Shown one piece after another: positions 5,443 through 24,063 of a DNA stretch of 24,477 nt; position 1 is the stretch's first letter; each line of letters starts with the position of its first letter. The stretch comes from a virus, in the IMG/VR virus record IMGVR_UViG_3300033145_002875, positions 1 to 24,477 of that record. One strand, 5' to 3'. The notes beneath the pieces are model-generated. The model was not told the DNA's origin. It made no database searches and saw only the letters and a program-made list of their open reading frames with translations. Position numbers and translations under genes: made by a program.

Positions 5443-6993
5443 TTAATACGCATCATAATCAACCGCATCACGGTATCCGACAAACCCGCTGTCAAGCGCC
5501 GGTTTTGCAGAAACCACCGGCGGCACCTCGTGATACACGTCAAATGTCCGGGCCGCATACACGGCCAGACTTTTTGCTACCGCTGCATCCCCGTGCCGCT
5601 TGCCCCCGTATTTGCTCAGGGTCCGTTCATCCACGGGCACCCGGGGAACGCCCTTGATTTTCTTGATGGCCCGGAAGTCTTCCAGCACTTCATTATCCTT
5701 GGGGAGCGAGGTGGTCCGATCCTCAAAGAGCGCCTTCATGGGCGGCATGTTTTCTAAGTACCAGGCAGATGAAAACGAAACCTGTTCAATGCGATCCTCG
5801 CTGTATCGCTGCATGGCTCGCTCCGCAAGAAACGCCCCGTTGCCGCCTTTATCCAGCGCCCCGCCGCATAACCTCGGCAGCCGGTCCAGCAGGTAGAACA
5901 AGGCCTGTTCCTGCTGGGAAAAGGGGCAATCCCGAAGCTCCAGCAGCAAGGGCGTCCAATACGTCAGCCCCGGCATCTCCTGGAGGGGCCACACGCAGGT
6001 CAGATCGCACGTCCGGGCGAAGTCTTCGCCGAACCAGGAGTTCGCAATAATGGCCTTGGCTTTCATGACGGGCTCAAGTTCGTCATCCAGCCAGTCCTGC
6101 ATCTCCTTGAACCGAGCCACATCGTCCCAGTGCACAAAATCCGTTGCCGGCGGCCGCCATCTCAACACCGGGATATCTTCGACCATGCACGCCTCGATCA
6201 TCATCCGGGTGAGAAAAGATCCCCCGCCCCGGGCCGGAATGCACAGCAGCTCTTCGTCGGCATCGTCCCCGTAATAATCAAACAGGGTTTCCCGCCATTC
6301 GGTCTGGCTATCTTCGCTCCAGGATTTGCCCAGGCGCAGGCAAATCCGGCGATACAGCCCCTGCTCAAGGGCGTCGTCGATGGTGACCCGGTGCAGGCTG
6401 TATGGTTTCTTGCCCGCCCGGACCTCGTTGATCAGCTCGGCAAACGGATGATCGTCCCCGTTGTGCGTGGAGATGATCACCACCCGGCCGCCCCACATCA
6501 GCATGGCCATGGCCGCCTTCAGCAGGCCCGCCAGGTCGTCGTGAAACGCGGCTTCGTCGATCACGATCTTTCCCTGCTTGCCGCGAAGGTTCGCCGGTCT
6601 GGATGAAAGGGCCACGACCTTGAACCCGGAAGGGTACTTGATCCGGAACGCCTGGATGTCTTTTTTTTCTTCCCCTTCATCCTGCCAGATAAATTCTTCG
6701 ATCTCGCCGGCCGCCTGGTTGTAAACCCGGGCCCAACCGGCGCAATCCTCGATGAATTCCAACGCCATGTCCTTGTTGTACCCGATGTAAAATACGTCCA
6801 TGCCGTTTTCCGACGCGGCCAGAAGGGCGTCTTCACCGGCCTCGGCCCAGGAAAGACCGATGCGCCGAGACTTTTCCATGATCTTCACCGGGCTTTGATC
6901 CGCCGCCCATTTCTTCTGGTAGGAAAGAAAAACATCCGGACATACGTCCGGCGTTCTTAAATTTCGGTTTTCTTTTCCGGCCCATCCCTTCAT
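5443..6993 (-). CDS. Terminase large subunit (Mu gp28-like)
   Basis: The 516-aa product is the packaging ATPase/nuclease. A deviant Walker A, KSRRIGLSW, lies at residues 41-49. Walker B is KIVIDEAAF, with the acidic pair near 146-147. Motif III is IISTHN near 173-178. C-terminal nuclease acids are likely in the RTCDLTCVWPLQ segment and in GKRHGDAAVAKSLA. It would cut concatenated or host-integrated DNA by a Mu-type headful mechanism and drive it through the portal. ATG at 6991-6993 overlaps the small-subunit TGA in ATGA, showing translational coupling. Length matches Mu gp28-like proteins. Confidence 0.9.
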   Translation of the reverse strand: MKGWAGKENRNLRTPDVCPDVFLSYQKKWAADQSPVKIMEKSRRIGLSWAEAGEDALLAASENGMDVFYIGYNKDMALEFIEDCAGWARVYNQAAGEIEEFIWQDEGEEKKDIQAFRIKYPSGFKVVALSSRPANLRGKQGKIVIDEAAFHDDLAGLLKAAMAMLMWGGRVVIISTHNGDDHPFAELINEVRAGKKPYSLHRVTIDDALEQGLYRRICLRLGKSWSEDSQTEWRETLFDYYGDDADEELLCIPARGGGSFLTRMMIEACMVEDIPVLRWRPPATDFVHWDDVARFKEMQDWLDDELEPVMKAKAIIANSWFGEDFARTCDLTCVWPLQEMPGLTYWTPLLLELRDCPFSQQEQALFYLLDRLPRLCGGALDKGGNGAFLAERAMQRYSEDRIEQVSFSSAWYLENMPPMKALFEDRTTSLPKDNEVLEDFRAIKKIKGVPRVPVDERTLSKYGGKRHGDAAVAKSLAVYAARTFDVYHEVPPVVSAKPALDSGFVGYRDAVDYDAY

Positions 6994-7520: not shown

Positions 7521-7768
7521 CAGGCCAGCTCCGCCTCAATCTTGGTAATGTCCACACAGACCGCTGTCAGCTTGATTTTCAGCTCGGCCGCCTCCCGCAA
7601 ATTATAATGGGCGCTGTCAATATCAATATCGGCAATGGCCCGTATCCGCCATCCGGCCAGAAAGGTTTGCACCGCCGCGAGGTTCGCCGCAATGGCCGTT
7701 GCAATCCTCATTTTTTCTTCCTTCAGTCCGGCCAGGTGGCCTTTCAAAATCGCGCGTTCCTGGTTCAT
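7520..7768 (-). CDS. Small helical phage protein (gp26 position)
   Basis: The 82-aa product is almost entirely helical, for example AILKGHLAGLKEEKMRIATA and REAAELKIKLTAVCVDITKI, with coiled-coil character. No specific domain was recognised. Overlap with both neighbours (ATGA upstream, TGATG downstream) shows it is a translated member of the late operon. In Mu-like phages a small protein of this kind (gp26) sits immediately before the small terminase, so it is probably the positional equivalent. Function unknown. Confidence 0.75.
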   Translation of the reverse strand: MNQERAILKGHLAGLKEEKMRIATAIAANLAAVQTFLAGWRIRAIADIDIDSAHYNLREAAELKIKLTAVCVDITKIEAELA

Positions 7769-12554: not shown

Positions 12555-13149
12555 TGTCTCCTTTCATTTCTTCAAGATTTGTTAAAATTTCCCGACAGAG
12601 CCTCATGGCCTTCTGCCGCTCATCCACCATGTGCAGCACCATCCCCGTGCAGATCAACCGGTTCAGTTTCACCGCCTTTAGAATCAACGGGTCCGGCTCG
12701 AAATCAGCTACTCTCGGCCGTTTTAGGTGTTCCCGGCCCTTGGGTGTCAATCGCCAGACTTTCTCACTTGCCCCGGACAACGCCGGCCGACGACCGTGCT
12801 GCACCACCAGCCCCTTTCCCCGGTACCGCCGCATCAGCTTGTACACATAGCTTGTGGTGGTCCCGGCAAGCATGGCCAGTTCAGAGCATGAGAACGTGGG
12901 TTTAATGCGCATGCCTTTCCATATGCGGTCATTAATGGGGGCGCCTTTTCCCGGCAGGGGTTTGTCAACAAACTCAAAGGTCCCGTGCCCGATTTTTACC
13001 AATCTTCCGGTGCGGACCAGTTGGTCAATGGCATGCACAACTTGGCTTTTGTGGATACCGAGCGCTTTCTCGATTTGTTTTTTTCGGACCAGGCTGTTTG
13101 CTGCTGCATACCGGCAGACCGTATCCACAATTTTAGGTGTATCGTTCAT
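12541..13149 (-). CDS. Tandem winged-helix DNA-binding protein
   Basis: The 202-aa product contains two probable winged helices. Residues about 5-62 are VDTVCRYAAANSLVRKKQIE, then GIHKSQVVHAIDQLVRTGRL and a wing KIGHGTFEFV. Residues about 85-145 are FSCSELAMLAGTTTSYVYKL, RRYRGKGLVVQHGRRP and a wing VWRLTPKGREHLKRP. The C-terminal helical tail may dimerise. It starts by ATGA overlap with the MuB-like gene and so is expressed with the transposition proteins. It is likely an early regulator or accessory DNA-binding factor. The exact family is not known to me. Confidence 0.7.
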   Translation of the reverse strand: MNDTPKIVDTVCRYAAANSLVRKKQIEKALGIHKSQVVHAIDQLVRTGRLVKIGHGTFEFVDKPLPGKGAPINDRIWKGMRIKPTFSCSELAMLAGTTTSYVYKLMRRYRGKGLVVQHGRRPALSGASEKVWRLTPKGREHLKRPRVADFEPDPLILKAVKLNRLICTGMVLHMVDERQKAMRLCREILTNLEEMKGDNDDQ

Positions 13150-13874
13150 GGCCGCCTGCCTCCTTTAAGTTTTGATTTGGGACCTGTTTTTCGTTGTGGC
13201 AGAGATTTAACCATATCAAGCGTTGCGACATTATCACCACTGGTCCGAACCATCTTTGAGAGATCGCGCACACAAATATGCATCAGCCGAAAATCACCAT
13301 CAGATTTTTGTGATACAACGACGGCTGCGTCAGGCATTATTTTTATTTGAAACGCCTTTGCAGCGTATAAAAGAATATCTTCTGTGCATATGGGGCCGAA
13401 ATGAACGGATTGCGTCACGCGGCTCCATAATCGTCTGCGGCAACTAATCGCAGAGTAAAGGCTCTCCTCTCCGATAAATACGATGGGCGCTCCTGTAAGG
13501 TCATGAATATCCCTAAAATATTCAAACATATCCATCCGTTTAAGCCTGTCAGCCTCATCCACCAGAAGAATTCGCCGATGCTGTTTCAGTCTGTAAATAA
13601 CACGGTCCATACAGTCGCCGGCGCTTCTTGGTTCCATGCCGGTGAGTTCATTGCATAGAGACGCCAACATCTGCCGGTCTGTCATATTGTGCAGCACTCT
13701 GAAATATACGGCATCAGTATTCATTGCGTAACTCTCTGAAGCCTTAGACTTTCCTCGCCCGGCCATACCGTACACCACGGCGAGGCCGGGTTGGCCGTAT
13801 TCTGTGTCTTCCAGGACCCCCATGGCTTCCCGGAAAAGACTGACGTTTTGCGTAACCAGAAAAATTTTTTTCAC
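13146..13874 (-). CDS. B: MuB-like AAA+ ATPase for transposition target choice
   Basis: The 242-aa product is an AAA+ ATPase with Walker A GMAGRGKS (residues 36-43), Walker B RILLVDEAD (Asp106, Glu107) and an IVFIGEE sensor-type strand. Next to a MuA-type transposase this is the MuB role: ATP-dependent filament on target DNA, stimulation of strand transfer and target immunity. It lacks the N-terminal HTH of Mu B (312 aa), which explains the shorter length. The start is GTG (13872-13874) with GGAGG upstream. The basic C-terminal tail (RKTGPKSKLKGGRRP) probably contacts DNA. Confidence 0.85.
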   Translation of the reverse strand: MKKIFLVTQNVSLFREAMGVLEDTEYGQPGLAVVYGMAGRGKSKASESYAMNTDAVYFRVLHNMTDRQMLASLCNELTGMEPRSAGDCMDRVIYRLKQHRRILLVDEADRLKRMDMFEYFRDIHDLTGAPIVFIGEESLYSAISCRRRLWSRVTQSVHFGPICTEDILLYAAKAFQIKIMPDAAVVVSQKSDGDFRLMHICVRDLSKMVRTSGDNVATLDMVKSLPQRKTGPKSKLKGGRRP

Positions 13875-13903: not shown

Positions 13904-16102
13904 TTACCCGATTCCAAACGCCTGATTTTCCCTCGGCAATATTCCCCGAAGCCCGTCAAACCGCTCCTTGTAACTTTCCGCAAACACCCGGCTGTTCTCA
14001 AATTGCGCCATAAACACCGAATCATCGGAAGAGAGCGAAAACCCGTCCCGGTGCACGGCGTAAAAGCACCATTCATACCGGTCCAGGTCGGACCGGAAAA
14101 ACCCCGGCCGGTCCGGAGCCGTTTTCGATGTCGGCATATCCGCCAGCGTTTTGTCCGCCAGATCCTCAAGCCGCTTTACTTCCCCGGCCGGAAGTGCTTT
14201 TTGTTCCGGCTTGTCGTTAATGGCCGGGGTGGTCCGGATCACCGGCTGTTTTTGCACATACGGCAGGCTCTTCAACCCGTCCATATCCTCCATGGACGCC
14301 CCAAGGGCCAGCAGTTGCTGTTTGGTACGCTTGAGCATCCGGTTTTGCCGCGCCATCTCATACTTCACCCGATCGAGTCCGACCTGGTCCCCGAACGCCG
14401 CCGCCACCGGGTGAATGGCCTGTACCGCGTTGGCCTCGTCAACATACTGCCCGTCCGGCGTATAGACCCAGATCGTCTCCATATTCGCGGTATCGTACAT
14501 GGCGGTCATCGGGTGGGTGATGCCGTGCAGGGCGTCGGACTCGTAATCGATGCCGTAAAGCTTGACCCGGCATCGCCGGGGCGTGACGGTCTTACGCCAT
14601 AAAAATTCGTGGTTCAGCGCCTGAACATCCACCCCGGGACCGCGCCCCGCCTCAAGCACGGACAAGGGCGTATCTCCGCCCAGGCCGGAATGGGGCTGGT
14701 TGACATAGTAGGTGAAATAGGACCCGATCAGATGGGCCGCTTCCCGGATGTCCGGGATCCAGCCGGAGGTTTGGGCCTGGTGCCAGGCCTGGTGGAATTT
14801 TTCGTTTCGCATCATATGGGCGGGCTTGTCTGAGATGGACGTTCCGGAAAAGCTGGGGAACATCCGCTCGCCCTGTTCCTGCATGGTCAGATGGAACCGC
14901 TCGTTGATTTTGGCCTTTGCATTGAAGGGAATGGCAAACATTGTGGCTATGCCCAGGCGGGCGAACAGCCCGGTCATCTCCATCAGATCCACGTCCTCGC
15001 CCAGGAACACCTTGTTCTTAAAGGCCTTGCCGTTGTCCATATAGGCAACCTTGGGAATCATGCCCAGGAACATAATGGCCATACGCAGGGCCGAGGCCAC
15101 GGCGATGGTGTTTTCCGTGGGCATGAGCTGCCACCCCGCCGGAAACCGGCTCCGCCAGTCCATCCAGATAATCAGGGCCATGCGGCAGGGTTTGCCCGAT
15201 ACCGGATGCAGCACCTGGAAATTTAACACCTTCCCGTCGGCAACCACACAATCCCCGACGTTCAATTGATCCAGGTCCCGGGTGATATAGGACTGGAACT
15301 GGTCCTTGTACGCCTTCTCCCCGTCCCTGGCCAAGGCCAGCACATGCCCGTTCTTTTCCCCGTACTCCTTCAGCCACCGCCGGAACGTGTCGTCACTGGC
15401 TCTCTCATCAATCCCCAGGGCGTCAAGTGTGTACCGCGCCGCCCGGATGGACATGGCCACCGTGGGCCGCTGCTGGGACAGGTAGCATTTCAGCAACGCC
15501 TTTTTAGACTCTTCGGACAGGCTCCGGCTCCGCCATTTATTGGTGCCGTGAACTTTCCACCCCCCCCGGCCGTCGCACAGGGATACGTAGTTGTCCTTGC
15601 TTTTAAGCAGCTTTTTGTCCAGGGCGCGCAGGGTCTGGACGGCGACATCCCCAAGGGTCTCATGGACTTTGGGCATCAGTTGCCCGGCGTTATAGGCCAG
15701 TAAAAACGCGGCTGAAAATTCGCTTTTCTTTCCCCAGGGCGCGTTATTTGCCGCCTTTCGAAACGCATGGACCAGCCGGTATTTTGCCAGGCCGATCTCC
15801 CTGGCCGTGTCCGGTATCGCCGGCATGTCGTTGGGCAACACCGCCGGCAGGTTTTTCGGATCAACCGGAACCAGACCCCGTTTTTCCGCATGCACAACAG
15901 CCCCGGCTTGGCGCACATCCTCGGGCAAGAGCCGGAAGATGTAGCGCCGCTGTTTTCCGCCCCGCTTGGCCTTGGCCGTTGTCAGCCATCCTTCCTTCCG
16001 TGCCCTGAGTTGGATGGCCCGCTCGGTCTTTCCCATGGCCCTTGCGATGTCGCTTGCCGTGGGCTCGATTTCCCCGCCGTTGTTTTCGCGTAAGGGATCC
16101 AT
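13904..16102 (-). CDS. A: MuA-like DDE transposase
   Basis: The 732-aa product starts at ATG 16100-16102, which overlaps the upstream TAA (TAATG) and follows GGAGG. A frame 25 codons longer has no such signals. Domains in order are an N-terminal Mu-type winged helix (about 10-60, ASDIARAMGKTERAIQLRAR), I-beta/I-gamma end-binding domains (about 90-255), an RNase H-like core with VVADGK (Asp289), AYMDNGKAF (Asp356) and INERFH (Glu401), then a C-terminal beta domain and a basic tail. D-D spacing of 67 equals that of MuA (269/336). It catalyses replicative transposition together with the B ATPase. Confidence 0.92.
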   Translation of the reverse strand: MDPLRENNGGEIEPTASDIARAMGKTERAIQLRARKEGWLTTAKAKRGGKQRRYIFRLLPEDVRQAGAVVHAEKRGLVPVDPKNLPAVLPNDMPAIPDTAREIGLAKYRLVHAFRKAANNAPWGKKSEFSAAFLLAYNAGQLMPKVHETLGDVAVQTLRALDKKLLKSKDNYVSLCDGRGGWKVHGTNKWRSRSLSEESKKALLKCYLSQQRPTVAMSIRAARYTLDALGIDERASDDTFRRWLKEYGEKNGHVLALARDGEKAYKDQFQSYITRDLDQLNVGDCVVADGKVLNFQVLHPVSGKPCRMALIIWMDWRSRFPAGWQLMPTENTIAVASALRMAIMFLGMIPKVAYMDNGKAFKNKVFLGEDVDLMEMTGLFARLGIATMFAIPFNAKAKINERFHLTMQEQGERMFPSFSGTSISDKPAHMMRNEKFHQAWHQAQTSGWIPDIREAAHLIGSYFTYYVNQPHSGLGGDTPLSVLEAGRGPGVDVQALNHEFLWRKTVTPRRCRVKLYGIDYESDALHGITHPMTAMYDTANMETIWVYTPDGQYVDEANAVQAIHPVAAAFGDQVGLDRVKYEMARQNRMLKRTKQQLLALGASMEDMDGLKSLPYVQKQPVIRTTPAINDKPEQKALPAGEVKRLEDLADKTLADMPTSKTAPDRPGFFRSDLDRYEWCFYAVHRDGFSLSSDDSVFMAQFENSRVFAESYKERFDGLRGILPRENQAFGIG

Positions 16103-16800
16103 TATGCCTCCCGAAGGATTGCCGCCTTGGCTTCGTCCAGGCACAGCACCGCCGCTTCCCGGGACGTGGTTTTCCATTTTTGCGCCCGGGCGTCGCTCAC
16201 CGCGTTCAGGAGGGATTGGAGGCCGGATTTGAAATCGTCGGAAATCACCGTCTCACGGGCGATGCGGGTTTTAGTGCTCCCCAGCCGCTGTACCACCTCC
16301 GCCCCGACATACTCGCTCACCGTCCGTGCCACCAGGGCCGCCGTGATCCGGCCGTTGGGGGCGTGTGCAATCACGTGGCGCCATACGTCAAGCTGCTGGT
16401 CGGGTTCGAGACGGGTGAGGGGTCGGGCCTGGCGCTCGTTTTTTGGGAGGAGGCTTTCGGGGATTAACGGGATGTCGCTTTTTTCGGATTCATTTTGCGA
16501 CCCATGGGTCGCGTTTTTCAAATTCTTTATGACCTCTGTTGACGCGATATATCGTTGCGCATGCCGGATGTTCATCTCCCACAAATCCTTGCAATACCCC
16601 TCAAACGTCCGGTGGGTGCTGCGGTACAGCCGCTTTTCCCGGATTTCCGCCAGGGCCGAGCCCACCGCCACAAACCCAGTGAAATTCCGCTCGATCACGG
16701 TCTCCAGATCGGCCCGCCGCTTGTTCTCCTTCGATGACAGCGGTGAGATTTCAACCTCTTCGTCATCGTCATTTTTATAAATGGATAGTATGTCCGTCAT
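16102..16800 (-). CDS. ParB/KorB-like helical early protein
   Basis: The 232-aa product has a central DUF3102-type region (FTGFVAVGSALAEIREKRLY, THRTFEGYCKDLWEMNIRHA, QRYIASTEVIKNL) and then PKNERQARPLTRLEPDQQLD. These blocks are typical of mobile-element proteins with a ParB/KorB-like helix-turn-helix. AAAGGAGAT precedes ATG 16798-16800. Its TAA overlaps the transposase ATG, so translation is coupled. A role in phage DNA maintenance or transposition control is likely, but unproven. Confidence 0.7.
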   Translation of the reverse strand: MTDILSIYKNDDDEEVEISPLSSKENKRRADLETVIERNFTGFVAVGSALAEIREKRLYRSTHRTFEGYCKDLWEMNIRHAQRYIASTEVIKNLKNATHGSQNESEKSDIPLIPESLLPKNERQARPLTRLEPDQQLDVWRHVIAHAPNGRITAALVARTVSEYVGAEVVQRLGSTKTRIARETVISDDFKSGLQSLLNAVSDARAQKWKTTSREAAVLCLDEAKAAILREA

Positions 16801-16820
16801 CTCAATATCTCCTTTTGCCG

Positions 16821-17012
16821 TTAGTCCCTGTTTGCTTGATTTCCGTCATGGTGTTTGATATTTAACTTGAGGTTCCGATTTGTTTTTTCAATTCGGACAA
16901 GCGGCCGAATTTCTTTCATAAGGGCTTCAAAGTCCTTATCTTTTTTAGGTATCAACGGACTGTCGGGAGGGATATTGCATGGATCGTAAAAAACAATCTG
17001 ATTTTCAGTCAT
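16821..17012 (-). CDS. Small hypothetical early protein
   Basis: The 63-aa product begins MTENQIVFYDPCNIPPDSPL and has a basic C-terminus (NRNLKLNIKHH). AAAGGAGAT lies ahead of ATG 17010-17012. That leader is nearly identical over 20 bp to the leader of the following 232-aa gene, suggesting a duplicated ribosome binding site region. Its first 34 bp are antisense to the start of the plus-strand zinc-ribbon gene. No family recognised. Confidence 0.55.
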   Translation of the reverse strand: MTENQIVFYDPCNIPPDSPLIPKKDKDFEALMKEIRPLVRIEKTNRNLKLNIKHHDGNQANRD

Positions 17013-17296
17013 CTCATAATCTCCTTTCTTCAAAATACAAGGACACGCCTTATGGGCCTGCCTGTATTGAAATGGAAGCCGCTTGCTTAAAATGCGGCCA
17101 TATCTACAAAATAAAGATCCAGGAATCTGAAATAAGAAATGTCCTGTCTGAGGCACAGGCCGGGACCGCAATGATTGATGCGATACTTGCCCAGTCAGGC
17201 TGGGCAAGAACATTGGTTCAACGGAAAAATGGCCCCCTTGCTCTTTATTCCGTATGCCCCGACTGTGTTGAAAAAGATTTTCAAACATATTTCTAA
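16979..17296 (+). CDS. Zinc-ribbon protein on the plus strand
   Basis: The 105-aa product has two CxxC knuckles, ACLKCGHIYKIKI (Cys36, Cys39) and SVCPDCVEKDF (Cys93, Cys96), separated by a helical segment. It is a small zinc ribbon. GGGAGG lies 8 bp before ATG 16979. It opposes the early operon: its 5' end overlaps the start of the minus 63-aa gene by 34 bp, and its stop codon overlaps the stop of the minus I-gamma-like gene (CTAA). It is likely an inserted cargo gene expressed separately. Function unknown. Confidence 0.6.
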   Translation: MDRKKQSDFQSSHNLLSSKYKDTPYGPACIEMEAACLKCGHIYKIKIQESEIRNVLSEAQAGTAMIDAILAQSGWARTLVQRKNGPLALYSVCPDCVEKDFQTYF

Positions 17297-17505
17297 GCTC
17301 GCTGTAACGCTGTTTGGTGCTGAGCATTTTCACAGTATGCCTTCAACCACCGCCGAAGCGCCTCATCCGACGCCGCCACGGCAATCCCCTGCCGTTTCAG
17401 ATTAAACCGCGCCGCCCGGATCGCCATCATCATCGGCGGCCGGCACCGGTCCAGATAACATCTTAAAATTGCTTCTTTTATTGTCTTGCTGATCTGTTTC
17501 TTCAT
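17293..17505 (-). CDS. Free-standing transposase I-gamma-like DNA-binding domain
   Basis: The 70-aa product starts at ATG 17503-17505 behind AAGGAGG. Without gaps it aligns to residues about 194-252 of this phage's own transposase: KEAILRCYLDRCRPPMMMAI versus KKALLKCYLSQQRPTVAMSI, then ASDEALRRWLKAY versus ASDDTFRRWLKEY. About 29 of 59 positions are identical by eye. In MuA this is the I-gamma end-binding subdomain. A lone copy with its own ribosome binding site could bind phage ends or the enhancer and compete with the transposase, or it may be the remnant of a second transposase. It lies in the early operon. Confidence 0.7.
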   Translation of the reverse strand: MKKQISKTIKEAILRCYLDRCRPPMMMAIRAARFNLKRQGIAVAASDEALRRWLKAYCENAQHQTALQRA

Positions 17506-17587
17506 GGTGTCCTCCTTGTTCATTGAGTTGATTTGTGGTATTTGCTAAATTCTTTATCCCCCAGACGAATGAAAGGAACTCATCATC

Positions 17588-18145
17588 ATGAACCCCGAAA
17601 TCATCAATGGGATTATCTCCGCATGCCTCGGTTTTACAGGGGCAGTCATCGGCGGCGGCATCGGCGCAGCCGTCACCTTGACCCTGAGAAAAGAAAAATT
17701 TAAAAAAATCGTCTATGAAGAGCGTCTTGCCGCCTATAAAAAGATTCTCGGTCATGTAATTAAAATTTTCTTCTTTATTAATGTAGTTGCCAAGGTGTTC
17801 GACTCTGCGAAGTCCGCGACGCAGTTGAAAAAGTTGACTGACGAGGTCTTCGGTCTCTTTTTCAGCCTCGAAACGGCAAGGATGCTTGTCTCTAAGGATG
17901 TCAGCGAAAAAGCCGACGAGATCATTAAATTTCTTCCTGTCGCGTTCAAGAAACCAGAGCCGGAAAATAGCATCCAGGTTGGAAAGGATGCTGTATTTGC
18001 CGCGAATCTCATCAAGGATCTGGTTAATGCCATAAGAAGCGACTTGGGCACGGATGCGTTGTCTTACAGTATTGATAAAACGATTAAAGGGCTTGGGATA
18101 TTTATTCAAAATGACCGTTACGACAATAGACCCGCCGATAAATGA
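17588..18145 (+). CDS. Membrane-anchored helical protein (plus-strand cargo)
   Basis: The 185-aa product has one N-terminal TM segment (residues about 8-33, GIISACLGFTGAVIGGGIGA), then KFKKIVYEERLAAYKKIL, the start typical of many membrane-tethered helical proteins, and a soluble helical body. GAAAGGAA lies about 9 bp before ATG 17588. A 263-codon frame exists on the opposite strand but is low-complexity and cysteine/aspartate-biased over most of its length, so the plus strand is preferred. It sits against the direction of the early operon, like the zinc-ribbon gene. It could be a superinfection or defence factor, but nothing specific identifies it. Confidence 0.65.
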   Translation: MNPEIINGIISACLGFTGAVIGGGIGAAVTLTLRKEKFKKIVYEERLAAYKKILGHVIKIFFFINVVAKVFDSAKSATQLKKLTDEVFGLFFSLETARMLVSKDVSEKADEIIKFLPVAFKKPEPENSIQVGKDAVFAANLIKDLVNAIRSDLGTDALSYSIDKTIKGLGIFIQNDRYDNRPADK

Positions 18146-18189
18146 AAAAACAAACACGATGAGCCATAGCATGATGTACGCTTCCATCC

Positions 18190-18735
18190 TCACCCCCCAA
18201 CCCGCATGGTTTTTTTAAGTTCCGTCTGGGCCTGCTTAACCTGGTCCATCAAATCCTGAACTTTCAACAGGTTCAACCGTTGCCTTTCTGCTGCCGTCAC
18301 CACGGCCCCGCCCTCCGCCTCCGCAAAACACCGGGCCGGCTCCAGTGATCCGGTCACATGATGTATGGCAAACAGCAACACCGCAGGCATCTTGTATTCG
18401 GTGGGTTTTGCCAGCATGTTGTTAAGCATGTTGAGGGTGAGGGGCTTGAAACATTCCTTGGGATTTTTCGCCGCCTTTTCTTCTGTGCGGCCCAGATAGG
18501 CATTGATCCGGTCCACCGCATCCGCACGGGAAAGCCCGGACTTGTCAATCGCTTTTTTCACTGAGGCTGCCAGCAGGTTGCAGGCCTCGAAATCGTTGCT
18601 TGCACCGAGCCCGGCCGGCTGGTCGTAAGCATCTTGTAACTCCCTGGTGATATTCACCAGATCCGTAATGCGCTTTTCAAACTGAAAATCCAGGGCCATC
18701 TGGTTCGGATCGGGCGTGTTGCGTCTACGTGCCAT
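18190..18735 (-). CDS. Phage-conserved early protein, helical
   Basis: The 181-aa product has features I associate with a family common in Mu-like phages: LAASVKKAIDKSGLSRADAV, DRINAYLGR, CFKPLTLNMLNNMLAKPTEY, KMPAVLLFAIHHVTGSLEPA. The middle resembles a helix-turn-helix with toxin/antitoxin-like spacing. No named function is known to me. AGGAGGG precedes ATG 18733-18735. It is the first large gene after Ner in the early transcript. Confidence 0.7.
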   Translation of the reverse strand: MARRRNTPDPNQMALDFQFEKRITDLVNITRELQDAYDQPAGLGASNDFEACNLLAASVKKAIDKSGLSRADAVDRINAYLGRTEEKAAKNPKECFKPLTLNMLNNMLAKPTEYKMPAVLLFAIHHVTGSLEPARCFAEAEGGAVVTAAERQRLNLLKVQDLMDQVKQAQTELKKTMRVGG

Positions 18736-18868: not shown

Positions 18869-19078
18869 TCAGCTTGCCAGGCGCGAATACCATTCCGGGA
18901 ATATCTCGTGCAGATCCCTTTTGATGGTCTTGGCAATCTCGCGTTCGATATGCGCCGCCCGTTTATGTTTGTGGACCACCTTGTTGACCATGGTGGCGGA
19001 AACACCCCGCCGCGCCGCAATGGCGGTTTGGGTTTCACCGGCGTCCTCAATGGCGTGCTTGATTTTTCGTGGGATCAT
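18869..19078 (-). CDS. ner: Ner-like helix-turn-helix regulator
   Basis: The 69-aa product has an HTH (AIEDAGETQTAIAARRGVSA, TMVNKVVHKHKRAAHIEREI) and ends HEIFPEWYSRL. This resembles the Ner/Nlp family, whose members end in a similar 'P-x-x-W/Y' segment. In Mu, Ner is the first early gene and turns down the early and repressor promoters. Position here, at the head of the early block facing the repressor, agrees. AAGGAAG precedes ATG 19076-19078. It could also be a general XRE-type regulator. Confidence 0.7.
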   Translation of the reverse strand: MIPRKIKHAIEDAGETQTAIAARRGVSATMVNKVVHKHKRAAHIEREIAKTIKRDLHEIFPEWYSRLAS

Positions 19079-19567: not shown

Positions 19568-19572
19568 ATGAT

Positions 19573-19855: not shown

Positions 19856-20044
19856 ATGGCCTCATCAACCTGTATTAAATGCGGTGGGCACTCGTTTGAA
19901 ATCGTTATCAAAGAACCGCGAGGTTCTGATTATAAGCTTACGTTCGTCCAGTGCAGCTCATGCGGCGGTGTCGTTGGCGTAATGGATTATTACAGTATCG
20001 GTGCAAAACTTCATAAAATTGAGAAGAAGCTGGGAATTTCCTGA
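19856..20044 (+). CDS. Small zinc-ribbon protein, cassette 3
   Basis: The 62-aa product has two CxxC pairs, STCIKCGGHSFEIVIKE (Cys6, Cys9) and VQCSSCGGVVGVMDYY (Cys33, Cys36), a compact zinc ribbon, then a short helix KLHKIEKKLG. GGAG lies about 10 bp before ATG 19856. It begins just after repeat copy 2. The paired knuckles make this a real gene. Zinc ribbons of this size often bind nucleic acid or RNA polymerase. Confidence 0.75.
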   Translation: MASSTCIKCGGHSFEIVIKEPRGSDYKLTFVQCSSCGGVVGVMDYYSIGAKLHKIEKKLGIS

Positions 20045-20248: not shown

Positions 20249-20476
20249 ATGACTGAAAAACAAGCGTCGGAATCATCCGAACCGTGCACGGAGGGCAAGC
20301 TCCTTGCACTTTTTACCGTAATCGTAGGCCTTTCGCGGGCTCTTGTTAAATCCGGGAACCTGGATCGTGACCTGCTACATGCTGAGCTTGACAATGGGCT
20401 TGGGTGGCTCCGTCGCCATGATCCCCATGCCTGTCAGGCGTTTGAAGATCTGTTGCCGATGCTGAGGGATATTTAG
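20249..20476 (+). CDS. Small helical protein, cassette 4
   Basis: The 75-aa product (GKLLALFTVIVGLSRALVKS, AELDNGLGWLRRHDPHACQA) is helical and soluble. GAAAGGA lies 8 bp before ATG 20249, just after repeat copy 3. No family recognised. It is on the plus strand, pointing toward the repressor gene. Confidence 0.65.
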   Translation: MTEKQASESSEPCTEGKLLALFTVIVGLSRALVKSGNLDRDLLHAELDNGLGWLRRHDPHACQAFEDLLPMLRDI

Positions 20477-20618: not shown

Positions 20619-21092
20619 ATGTCAAGAAAAAATATTTCATTATTAAATATTATTGAAAGAATGAAGGCGGCCTCATCAATATCAAAAGATATTAAATTAG
20701 CCGAATCACTTGGTATTGCTCAAAGTACGCTTGCTGGATGGAAATCAAGGGGAACCATAGATATCTCAATAATTATTGATTTTTGCGATAATTTTAACGT
20801 TAATTTGGATTGGCTCCTTACTGGAAATGGCGAAAAATTTCGCACAAAAAAGGTTGATACACCTATCGATTCTAAAAAAGTCGTCGATATAGATGCCCAT
20901 CACGATGAAATAATCAGAGGCTTCGAAGATAAGGAAACCGCCAGGGAAATGAACCTGGATCTGTTAACGATTGAAAAATTAAACAAAACCGTTTTCAGGG
21001 AAACCGGGACCTATATAAAAGGGGTGGCAAACACACTTAAGTCCGTAATAAAAGAAACCCAGACGGAATTCAAAAAAAAGGGGAACGGGTAG
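20619..21092 (+). CDS. CI-type phage repressor (zero-frame product)
   Basis: The 157-aa product has an N-terminal CI-repressor HTH (LLNIIERMKAASSISKDIKL, AESLGIAQSTLAGWKSRG, NLDWLLTGNGEKF), then an acidic linker and helices (NLDLLTIEKLNKTVFRETGT). It is the lysogeny repressor, facing the end of the prophage and divergent from the Ner-led early genes, as c is in Mu. ATG 20619 lacks a Shine-Dalgarno. A TTG at 20604 is an alternative, and a near-leaderless mRNA is possible. It ends at TAG 21090-21092, but the frame continues in -1 after the slippery site at 21074-21080. The gene is much more AT-rich than the structural genes. Confidence 0.85.
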   Translation: MSRKNISLLNIIERMKAASSISKDIKLAESLGIAQSTLAGWKSRGTIDISIIIDFCDNFNVNLDWLLTGNGEKFRTKKVDTPIDSKKVVDIDAHHDEIIRGFEDKETAREMNLDLLTIEKLNKTVFRETGTYIKGVANTLKSVIKETQTEFKKKGNG

Positions 21093-21403
21093 AGTACCTG
21101 GCCGCCCTGGCCAAAAATGGCCAAACCGTTTGCCGGATTGACCGCAACGGCACGGTTCTGGAGGTTCACGGCGGGCTCGGAGTAGATGGAAGTGGCGTGA
21201 TCGGCAAATCCTGTTTTCCATACTTTTTAAACCGGCTTGATTTACAAACATTCAAGCGGATGATGTCCATGGCCGTGGAGTCAAGGGAACCGTACACGAT
21301 GCCGGCAAAAATCCTGATAGACGACAGGCCGGTCATCTGTTTTATCAGAATCATAAAATGTGATGCCGACTTGGTGTTGATACTGAATAAATTACCGGCT
21401 TGA
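21080..21403 (+). CDS. PAS-like extension of repressor, reached by -1 frameshift
   Basis: A 107-codon frame follows the repressor in the -1 frame, with no ATG, GTG or Shine-Dalgarno of its own before GTG 21197. It reads GERVEYLAALAKNGQTVCRI, DRNGTVLEVHGG, VIGKSCFPYFLNRLD, MPAKILIDDRPVICFIRIIK, which resembles a PAS domain (ligand/redox sensor fold). The zero-frame codons AAA-AAG at 21075-21080, with A at 21074, form the heptamer A_AAA_AAG, a strong bacterial -1 site. The fused product would be 261 aa and ends right before a hairpin. Alternatives are a mutation in the A8 run, or a sequencing error. Confidence 0.6.
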   Translation, partial: GERVEYLAALAKNGQTVCRIDRNGTVLEVHGGLGVDGSGVIGKSCFPYFLNRLDLQTFKRMMSMAVESREPYTMPAKILIDDRPVICFIRIIKCDADLVLILNKLPA

Positions 21404-21430
21404 CCGCATCCTTTATATATAAGGATGCGG
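21404..21430 (+). terminator. Perfect 10-bp hairpin after the repressor frame
   Basis: CCGCATCCTT (21404-21413), a TATATAT loop and AAGGATGCGG (21421-21430) form a perfect hairpin starting on the base after the extension's TGA. It lacks a T-run on the plus strand, so it may slow rather than stop transcription. The right arm also contains AAGGA spaced for a small ORF at 21432, so it could instead control translation. Confidence 0.5.
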
Positions 21431-21431
21431 G

Positions 21432-21542
21432 ATGAAAAAATTTAATGGCGTGCTGGATGCAAAATGCTTCAGCCCATTTTTTTGGCCCGAAATCAAGACC
21501 GGGTATAAAACTACGTATCTTAATATTGGTTTAAAGTGGTAA
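21432..21542 (+). CDS. Possible 36-aa peptide with ribosome binding site in a hairpin
   Basis: ATG at 21432 opens 36 codons (MKKFNGVLDAKCFSPFFWPE, then IKTGYKTTYLNIGLKW) ending TAA. AAGGA lies 6 bp upstream but is buried in the stem at 21421-21430, so translation would be closed unless the stem melts. Aromatic-rich composition suggests a membrane-active or small regulatory peptide. Reality is uncertain. Confidence 0.3.
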   Translation: MKKFNGVLDAKCFSPFFWPEIKTGYKTTYLNIGLKW

Positions 21543-22586: not shown

Positions 22587-22871
22587 ATGTCCAAAAAAAT
22601 AAGATCCGAAATCGCCGAGATCCTCAACACCACCTTCACCCCGGAAACCTTCCACCCGGAAAATATCCACCAAAACCGGTTAACACCCCCCGAAACCCAC
22701 GACCCCAACACAATCCGCTGGTGGGCCGAGGCCGAAAGCGGCCGCATCGCCAGCGCCATCGGCATGACCATGTCCGATTTTATCAAACGCCACAATAAAG
22801 GGCTTACGCAAAAAATATTCGACAACAACCTCGGCTGGCAGTTTCATGATAAAAATCAAACTGTCATTTAG
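22587..22871 (+). CDS. 94-aa hypothetical protein upstream of HsdR-N gene
   Basis: The product begins MSKKIRSEIAEILNTTFTPE, has a His/Pro/Asn-rich middle (TPPETHDPNTIRWWAEAESG) and a helical end (SAIGMTMSDFIKRHNKG, IFDNNLGWQF). GAGG lies 7 bp before ATG 22587. It is much more GC-rich than the following gene despite being only 33 bp upstream, suggesting separate origins. No family recognised. Proximity suggests co-expression with the nuclease-domain gene. Confidence 0.6.
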   Translation: MSKKIRSEIAEILNTTFTPETFHPENIHQNRLTPPETHDPNTIRWWAEAESGRIASAIGMTMSDFIKRHNKGLTQKIFDNNLGWQFHDKNQTVI

Positions 22872-22904
22872 AAAATTAAACCACTATAATTTGGAGGAAC
22901 TAAA

Positions 22905-23981
22905 ATGAGTTTTGATGAAAAAATCATGGCACTTGCTCAACGTTTACCAAAGATTGTGGACCATTTAGATACAGAAGAGGCGACAAAAAACGCATTGGTA
23001 ATGCCTTTTATTGCCGCCCTTGGATATGACGTTTTTAACCCAAAAGAAGTGGTTCCAGAGTTTACAGCGGATGTCGGCACAAAAAAAGGTGAAAAAGTAG
23101 ATTACGCTATTATGAAAGATGGTGAGACTATCTTTTTAATTGAGTGTAAAAAAAGTGGGTCTGATCTTTCAAAAGAAAATATGAGTCAGTTATATCGCTA
23201 TTTTAATGTCACCAAGGCTCGTATTGCAATTCTTACCAATGGAGTTCAGTATTGGTTTTATTCTGACATTGAAGAGCTTAACAAAATGGATGACAGACCT
23301 TTTTTAGAGCTTAATTTAAAAAATCCCAAAGGGAACGCGCTATTTGAAGTAAAAAAGATGGCAAAGGATGGCTTTGACCTTGATAATATGTTGAGTACGG
23401 CTAGCGAGCTTAAATATATATCTGAAATCCAAAAGTGTTTATCTTCACAATACGAATTGCCGGATGAAGATTTTGTCCGCTTTTTCTTTATGAAAGCTTT
23501 ACCAGGTGGCCGTTTTACGGCATCTATGAAAGAACAGTTTTCGCCTATGGTATTAAAAGCCTTTCATCAATTTGTGAGTGATAAGGTTAGTGATCGTCTT
23601 CGATCTGCACTTGACAGCGAAAAAGGATCTGCCGAAAACAACAAAGAAAATGCTGAAGAAAACAATATCGAAGAACCTATGAATAATGGAATTATAACAA
23701 CAGATGAAGAAATAGAGGGGTTTCAAATTGTTAGAGCAATTGCTGCGAGAGATGTTAAACCCGAACGAATTGTTCATAGGGACACAAAATCATATATGGG
23801 GATACTGTTTGATGACAATAATAGAAAACCGATTTGCCGCCTCTGGCTTAACACGAAGCAAAAATATATTGGTTTGATTGACAAAGATAAAAACGAGTTA
23901 AGAATCCCAATCGATTCAACAACTGACATATATAAACATTCTGATCAGCTACTCCAAACGATCGCATCTTATGAACAATAA
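22905..23981 (+). CDS. Orphan HsdR N-terminal-domain (PD-(D/E)xK) protein
   Basis: The 358-aa product has a type I restriction R-subunit N-terminal domain. KVDYAIMKDGETIFLIECKK gives Asp66, Glu80-x-Lys82, and ENMSQLYRYF gives the Gln95-x3-Tyr99 motif that follows the nuclease core in HsdR. There is no helicase, HsdM or HsdS. The C-terminal third (RIVHRDTKSYMGILFDD, CRLWLNTKQKYIGLIDKDKN) is a beta-rich domain often fused to this module. GGAGG lies before ATG 22905. As prophage cargo it may cut foreign DNA or act in superinfection exclusion, possibly with the 94-aa protein. The catalytic residues look intact, but the target is unknown. Confidence 0.8.
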   Translation: MSFDEKIMALAQRLPKIVDHLDTEEATKNALVMPFIAALGYDVFNPKEVVPEFTADVGTKKGEKVDYAIMKDGETIFLIECKKSGSDLSKENMSQLYRYFNVTKARIAILTNGVQYWFYSDIEELNKMDDRPFLELNLKNPKGNALFEVKKMAKDGFDLDNMLSTASELKYISEIQKCLSSQYELPDEDFVRFFFMKALPGGRFTASMKEQFSPMVLKAFHQFVSDKVSDRLRSALDSEKGSAENNKENAEENNIEEPMNNGIITTDEEIEGFQIVRAIAARDVKPERIVHRDTKSYMGILFDDNNRKPICRLWLNTKQKYIGLIDKDKNELRIPIDSTTDIYKHSDQLLQTIASYEQ

Positions 23982-23991
23982 TTTTGAACCA

Positions 23992-24063
23992 ATATGGTGC
24001 AATAAAAAAAGCCCGTTTTCCGGGGCCGCAAACTGAAAGCAAACTTCTCACATACGGTGCAAT
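23992..24063. repeat. Direct repeat ATAYGGTGCAAT, 60 bp apart
   Basis: ATATGGTGCAAT (23992-24003) and ATACGGTGCAAT (24052-24063) differ at one base, and each is followed by A/T-rich DNA. They lie in the gap between the last cargo gene and the prophage end. They could be transposase end-binding sites like the L sites of Mu. No other copy was noted. Confidence 0.45.
24004..24026 (-). terminator. Rho-independent terminator facing into the prophage
   Basis: On the minus strand the sequence CCCG-GAAAA-CGGGC is followed by TTTTTTTA, a short GC stem with a purine loop and a T-run. It would stop transcription entering from the disrupted host gene before it runs antisense to the HsdR-N gene. The stem is only 4 bp, so strength is uncertain. 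Confidence 0.5.

Follow-up and report, generated by a model that had tools for sequence, protein, structure and literature searches.

The window analyzed here is the whole 24,477-nucleotide stretch, a linear IMG/VR record of a Mu-like phage whose minus strand carries a Ner-like gene, a CII-like gene, a 232-aa early gene, transposase A and ATPase B, with head genes farther along (Table 1). Between the CII-like gene and the 232-aa gene lies a short gene, P0001, whose product resembles an internal part of transposase A. Why would a phage that encodes a transposase also encode one piece of it separately, and is that piece a working gene?

The earlier note had described a 70-aa gene with its own AAGGAGG site, about half identical without gaps to the transposase of the same phage. 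This description held: the sequence upstream of the start reads AAGGAGG-ACACC-ATG, and BLASTP aligned P0001 with the phage's own transposase without a gap, at 32 of 67 identical (48%) and 43 of 67 positive positions (E 8e-19). Both sequence blocks that had been singled out are present in the alignment, RPPMMMAIRAAR of P0001 facing RPTVAMSIRAAR of the transposase and ASDEALRRWLKAY facing ASDDTFRRWLKEY. The residue numbers given for the match, about 194–252, had been counted from a methionine 25 residues further in; numbered from the first ATG, the paralogous stretch spans residues 218–284. The phrog_310 transposase profile also detected P0001, in the same colinear part of the model, and an Iγ family profile that included P0001 itself picked it out of all the ORFs in about 190 loci, at E 9e-25. 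Because both profiles detect P0001, a chance likeness is excluded. Two places in the whole record match the Iγ domain, P0001 and the transposase, and a search of the whole record revealed no other transposase sequence flanking P0001. The borders of the gene are those of the domain. The frame is open and has its own start, and no signs of decay (further transposase remnants, stops or frameshifts) were seen around it.

Table 1. Features of the P0001 locus and lone Iγ genes of other prophages
Feature	Sequence	Position	Strand	Remarks
B-type transposition ATPase	Window	13146..13874	-	phrog_296
Mu-type DDE transposase A	Window	13904..16177	-	757 aa from first ATG; rve, Mu-transpos_C, phrog_310
Iγ subdomain within transposase	Window	15326..15526	-	Stretch paralogous to P0001
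232-aa early gene	Window	16102..16800	-	Conserved directly upstream of A in relatives
Extra 1.39-kb segment	Window	16800..18190		Contains the lone gene
105-aa CxxC-type ORF	Window	16979..17296	+	Convergent with P0001; stop codons overlap
P0001, free-standing Iγ-like gene	Window	17293..17505	-	70 aa, TAG stop
Shine–Dalgarno AAGGAGG of P0001	Window	17511..17517	-	5 bases ahead of ATG
185-aa ORF without assigned function	Window	17588..18145	+	Inside extra segment
CII-like regulator	Window	18190..18735	-	phrog_2345; conserved flank of extra segment
Ner-like HTH repressor	Window	18869..19078	-	phrog_769
P0002, lone Iγ gene	G751:C28 (L235)	5590-5802	-	71 aa; early operon upstream of A; GGAGGAG site
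G541 lone Iγ gene	G541:C60 (L267)	7557-7760	+	68 aa; between A and B; AGGAGA upstream

When the PDB was searched with a profile of 28 Iγ stretches, P0001 among them, the NMR structure of MuA Iγ (2EZH/2EZI) came first, at E 0.015, and the MuA transpososome (4FCY) was also matched. The full-length transposase profile matched 4FCY at E 1e-16, colinear through Iγ into the catalytic core. The AlphaFold2 model of P0001 (pLDDT 83.5, pTM 0.69) has four predicted helices (residues 7–17, 25–38, 47–60 and 62–69) in the homeodomain-like fold of 2EZH and 4FCY. In the superposition on MuA Iγ that had been proposed beforehand as a check, VIA-align put MuA 178–241 in first place, with Z 7.4 and 7.0 (rmsd 2.4 over 64 residues), and TnsB second (Z 6.8), the two tied within 1 Z and well clear of the remaining, unrelated folds (≤4.3). 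Foldseek placed the same entries on top, with E near 1. A search for Pfam PF09039 gave no match anywhere, controls included, and at E 0.1 P0001 matched no Pfam model; since the phage's own transposase likewise matches no Iγ model, the Pfam model is insensitive here. P0001 has no DDE catalytic core, and it also lacks Iβ, which together with Iγ makes up the end-binding module of MuA. As the profile and fold matches both point to MuA Iγ, the assignment of P0001 as Iγ and nothing else is well supported by sequence and predicted structure, which bears out the proposal that the domain stands here by itself.

We then considered how P0001 is placed among related phages. Profile scans retrieved relatives with transposases 42–50% identical (L201, L188, L189/L194, L191, L192, L193, L202, L010 and others), none of which has a lone Iγ copy in the available sequence. 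L201, the relative with the best synteny, keeps the order ner, CII-like gene, 235-aa gene, A, B, and its CII-like and 235-aa genes are 73 bp apart, whereas the corresponding gap in the window is 1.39 kb and holds the lone gene; P0001 is therefore an accessory gain, or was lost in relatives. A survey for a lone gene at the same locus, which the earlier note had recommended, thus met a locus that is not conserved. The extra segment contains P0001, two plus-strand ORFs and a 63-aa ORF, and its DNA had no match in phage records. No ortholog of P0001 turned up when its single sequence was scanned against IMG/VR, genome contigs and phage records, and profile scans of IMG/VR for lone Iγ recovered copies within transposases only. 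P0001 is not a conserved phage gene. A promoter and terminator scan of the region gave nothing usable.

Several other features of the phage were observed. Small plus-strand ORFs (16979–17296, 17588–18145, 19856–20044 and 20249–20476) interleave with the minus-strand early genes, and two of them carry paired CxxC motifs. An element of about 45 bp (CGCTCCTTTTAACGTAGGTTTCTTTTTTTTGG...) is repeated near window positions 19571, 19797, 20188 and 20535 (approximate); on the minus strand it forms a 5′ leader, with AAAAGGAGC directly before the ATG of small early genes. At 21070–21403 (plus strand), a CI-like repressor ORF ends just past an A8G4 tract, and the −1 frame that continues from there, open to 21403, would add a C-terminal domain to it, reflecting either a programmed frameshift or an assembly indel; a hairpin follows at 21406–21433. 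Towards the left end, 22587–23981 (plus strand) holds a small ORF and then a 358-aa protein that by eye has the look of an HsdR_N-type restriction-enzyme N terminus. Near 24.2 kb, a possible phage left end, a YCF48-like ORF is apparently cut off. Close to this point, two copies of ATTGCACC(A/G)TAT(K)(K)G (23989–24003 and 24049–24063, minus strand, in one orientation, 60 bp apart) are candidate transposase sites, by a pattern chosen after they had been seen.

Lone Iγ genes were found in other prophages. A survey of Desulfobacterota genomes (395, 55, 5, 348 and 247, in overlapping draws), in which only some candidates per genome were scored so that copies may have been missed, yielded many Mu-type transposases and one further free gene, P0002. 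A third gene, in genome G541, was found by fetching the flanks of 60 transposase loci and scanning 319 sequences. Each of these two has a ribosome-binding site of its own and sits near the transposase gene of a prophage, in the Desulfobacterota genomes G751 and G541 respectively. Judged by its sequence, the G541 protein is Iγ (E 4e-5 against the Iγ of its own transposase); its model for the fold search was made without an alignment. Among 398 Pseudomonadota genomes, 33 domain matches included none in a frame under 200 aa. Several candidates were set aside. Between A and B, a 139-aa frame in G581:C1 (L236, 2197–2613, minus strand) consists of an Iγ segment fused to the beginning of gene B in a diverged copy; it is either a recent chimeric gene or an assembly artefact. 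The 4-kb contig ends at the repeated segment, and the frame, possibly an assembly chimera, was not counted. Weak matches in G223, G764, G499 and L241 were judged to be chance, the match in L237 is a frameshifted transposase and that in L248 a contig edge.

In a tree of 71 Iγ sequences, P0001 grouped with the transposases of the window, L193, L010 and L176 (support 70), P0002 with L243/L244/L245/L256 (support 87) and the G541 gene with L213/L223/L180 (support 92). Three lone genes in three transposase clades indicate at least three independent origins. In AU tests of 2000 replicates over 77 columns, sisterhood with its own transposase was rejected for P0002 (p 0.036), and was not rejected for the G541 gene or for P0001 (p 0.53); that P0001 is simply a copy of its own transposase is thus neither rejected nor favoured. 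The transposase was also cut into eleven tiles of about 70 residues, and the same loci were scanned for short ORFs that match any one of them. With the Iγ tile, the three clean genes were recovered; the N-terminal Iα tile gave short ORFs in about 30 Mu-like loci (L058, L062, L075, L081 and others), most of them repressor-like and on the opposite strand, and from all other tiles came essentially nothing but pieces at contig edges or from frameshifts. By this comparison, informal in that profile sensitivity varies by tile and short matches were sorted by eye, Iγ is singled out apart from Iα, which is known from repressors.

These data bear on the leading rival explanation, namely that P0001 is a remnant without function, a piece that recombination brought into an accessory segment from the transposase of another phage and whose frame is still open by chance. 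Its position in a segment missing from L201 and the failure of the scans to return an ortholog both favour this. So does its fast evolution: the terminal branches of the lone genes are 0.87 (P0001), 1.37 and 1.35 against a transposase median of 0.17, and of the 22 positions with a conservation of 90% or more in its clade, P0001 retains 14, whereas transposases retain 19–22 of 22–24. The long branch and the lost residues also fit relaxed constraint. Compared with the nearest transposase, however, dN/dS for the three lone genes is approximately 0.55/2.0, 0.41/1.6 and 0.51/1.7, near 0.3 each, so the divergence occurred mostly under protein-level constraint. Identity is also much lower at third codon positions (0.42) than at second positions (0.64), which counts against a remnant. 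This ratio does not date the constraint, and part of the divergence may predate truncation, in an unsampled donor transposase. The open frame alone is weak evidence, because 15% of sequences in a neutral simulation reached P0001's amino-acid divergence without a stop. What speaks against a remnant is that gene and domain borders agree behind a strong Shine–Dalgarno site with no flanking transposase sequence, and that the same product arose at least three times while other tiles did not yield such genes. The intact start, the clean flanks and the independent parallels likewise counter the decaying fragment that the earlier note had named as grounds for abandoning its proposal. We consider a remnant unlikely, although a serious contender. 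Recurrent independent origin suggests a small dedicated regulator rather than debris, and P0001 is a putative example.

What might such a regulator do? Our best explanation, which we hold at a little short of even confidence, is that P0001 is a stand-alone captured Iγ that binds DNA and modulates transposition. The product is small and very basic, with a predicted homeodomain-like helix-turn-helix fold, and would derive from a transposase of this phage's clade; its gene is co-oriented with the early genes and near the transposase gene. P0001 would most likely bind DNA by itself, at the gamma half of the transposase end sites or at similar sequence, and could then, if produced alongside the transposase, compete for part of an end site or replace an Iγ in the transpososome. 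A lone Iγ entering the transpososome would bring no catalysis, and the net effect on transposition would more probably be inhibitory. We infer the DNA target, the partner and the direction of the effect, end-site binding and inhibition included. P0001 has a net charge of +10, whereas 68 transposase Iγ domains reach +8 at most and have a median of +3. This excess, noticed after the fact, would suit a domain that has to bind DNA unaided; P0002 (+4) is without it. It also counts against our explanation that each lone Iγ gene is a singleton with no ortholog found.

Binding to the same end sites as the transposase, as the earlier note had proposed, lacks support: Iβ is absent, the L176 transposase is as close to P0001 as the phage's own (49% vs 48%), and only 14 of the 22 conserved positions remain. 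In MuA, Iβ and Iγ jointly recognize the end sites. The Iβ study by Schumacher et al. of 1997 reportedly found that a single subdomain binds 100–1000 times more weakly than both together. Because Iγ alone should bind weakly, simple competition by P0001 would need high expression, extra affinity or protein contacts. Within the transpososome, MuA Iγ is extensively engaged in contacts with protein, and insertions into it are not tolerated (PMC3362531).

Alternatively, P0001 may be a repurposed transcription regulator that kept the Iγ fold and reads an operator of early or accessory genes instead of transposase sites. It lies in the early control region beside the Ner-like and CII-like genes, it is very basic, and its recognition helix, while keeping the RRW core, carries T264A and F265L relative to its own transposase; moreover, Iα of the same family is well known as a repressor domain and recurs as such here. 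However, the lone genes recurrently adjoin A or stand between A and B, and 70 aa hold no partner domain or dimerization region, so that we regard this account as distinctly unlikely. Least probable, and by a wide measure doubtful, is interference, in which the captured domain would recognize the ends of a rival transposable phage and block its transposition: the lone G751 protein (P0002) is 53% identical to the transposase on a second Mu-like prophage contig of the same genome vs 46% to its own, its sisterhood with the latter was rejected, and P0001 is no nearer to its own transposase than to that of L176, but AU tests of that small size did not reject such sisterhood for P0001 or the G541 gene. 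Ranked from the most likely, modulation of transposition comes first, followed by a remnant or a repurposed regulator, and then by interference with rival phages. More broadly, Mu-like phages of Desulfobacterota may repeatedly have made Iγ a separate early gene that controls transposition or blocks the ends of rivals, a one-domain modulator class that we put forward as conceivable rather than probable. We found no description of stand-alone Iγ genes in the open-access literature. If Iγ is made separately, with several origins, phages would have a second way, again through a shared domain, of tuning or blocking transpososome assembly, and a natural 70-aa protein would be a simple tool for dissecting end-site recognition without catalysis.

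Among known systems, the closest is MuA Iγ itself (2EZH/2EZI, approximately residues 174–247; also in 4FCY), the top PDB profile match, with the same fold and a colinear position in the parent protein. In Mu, however, Iγ is part of a 663-aa transposase, tethered to Iβ and the catalytic core, whereas P0001 is a separate gene. The end-binding domain of TnsB (9BW1) has the same fold class as the P0001 model but likewise sits within a large transposase. Mu controls transposition with a repressor that has Iα in common with the transposase, and the earlier note's comparison with this arrangement was apt: in both cases a DNA-binding domain of the transposase also occurs in a separate phage protein, in Mu the repressor c. 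The difference is that repressor c shares Iα, which binds the enhancer and operator, whereas P0001 is Iγ, which binds ends. Non-catalytic transposase derivatives such as Tn5 Inh, IS1 InsA and the P-element KP protein can lower transposition. P0001 resembles them as a non-catalytic relative of the same element's transposase, and might by analogy be inhibitory; Inh, InsA and KP arise from the transposase gene itself, as alternative products or as deletion derivatives, whereas P0001 is a diverged, separate gene for one subdomain.
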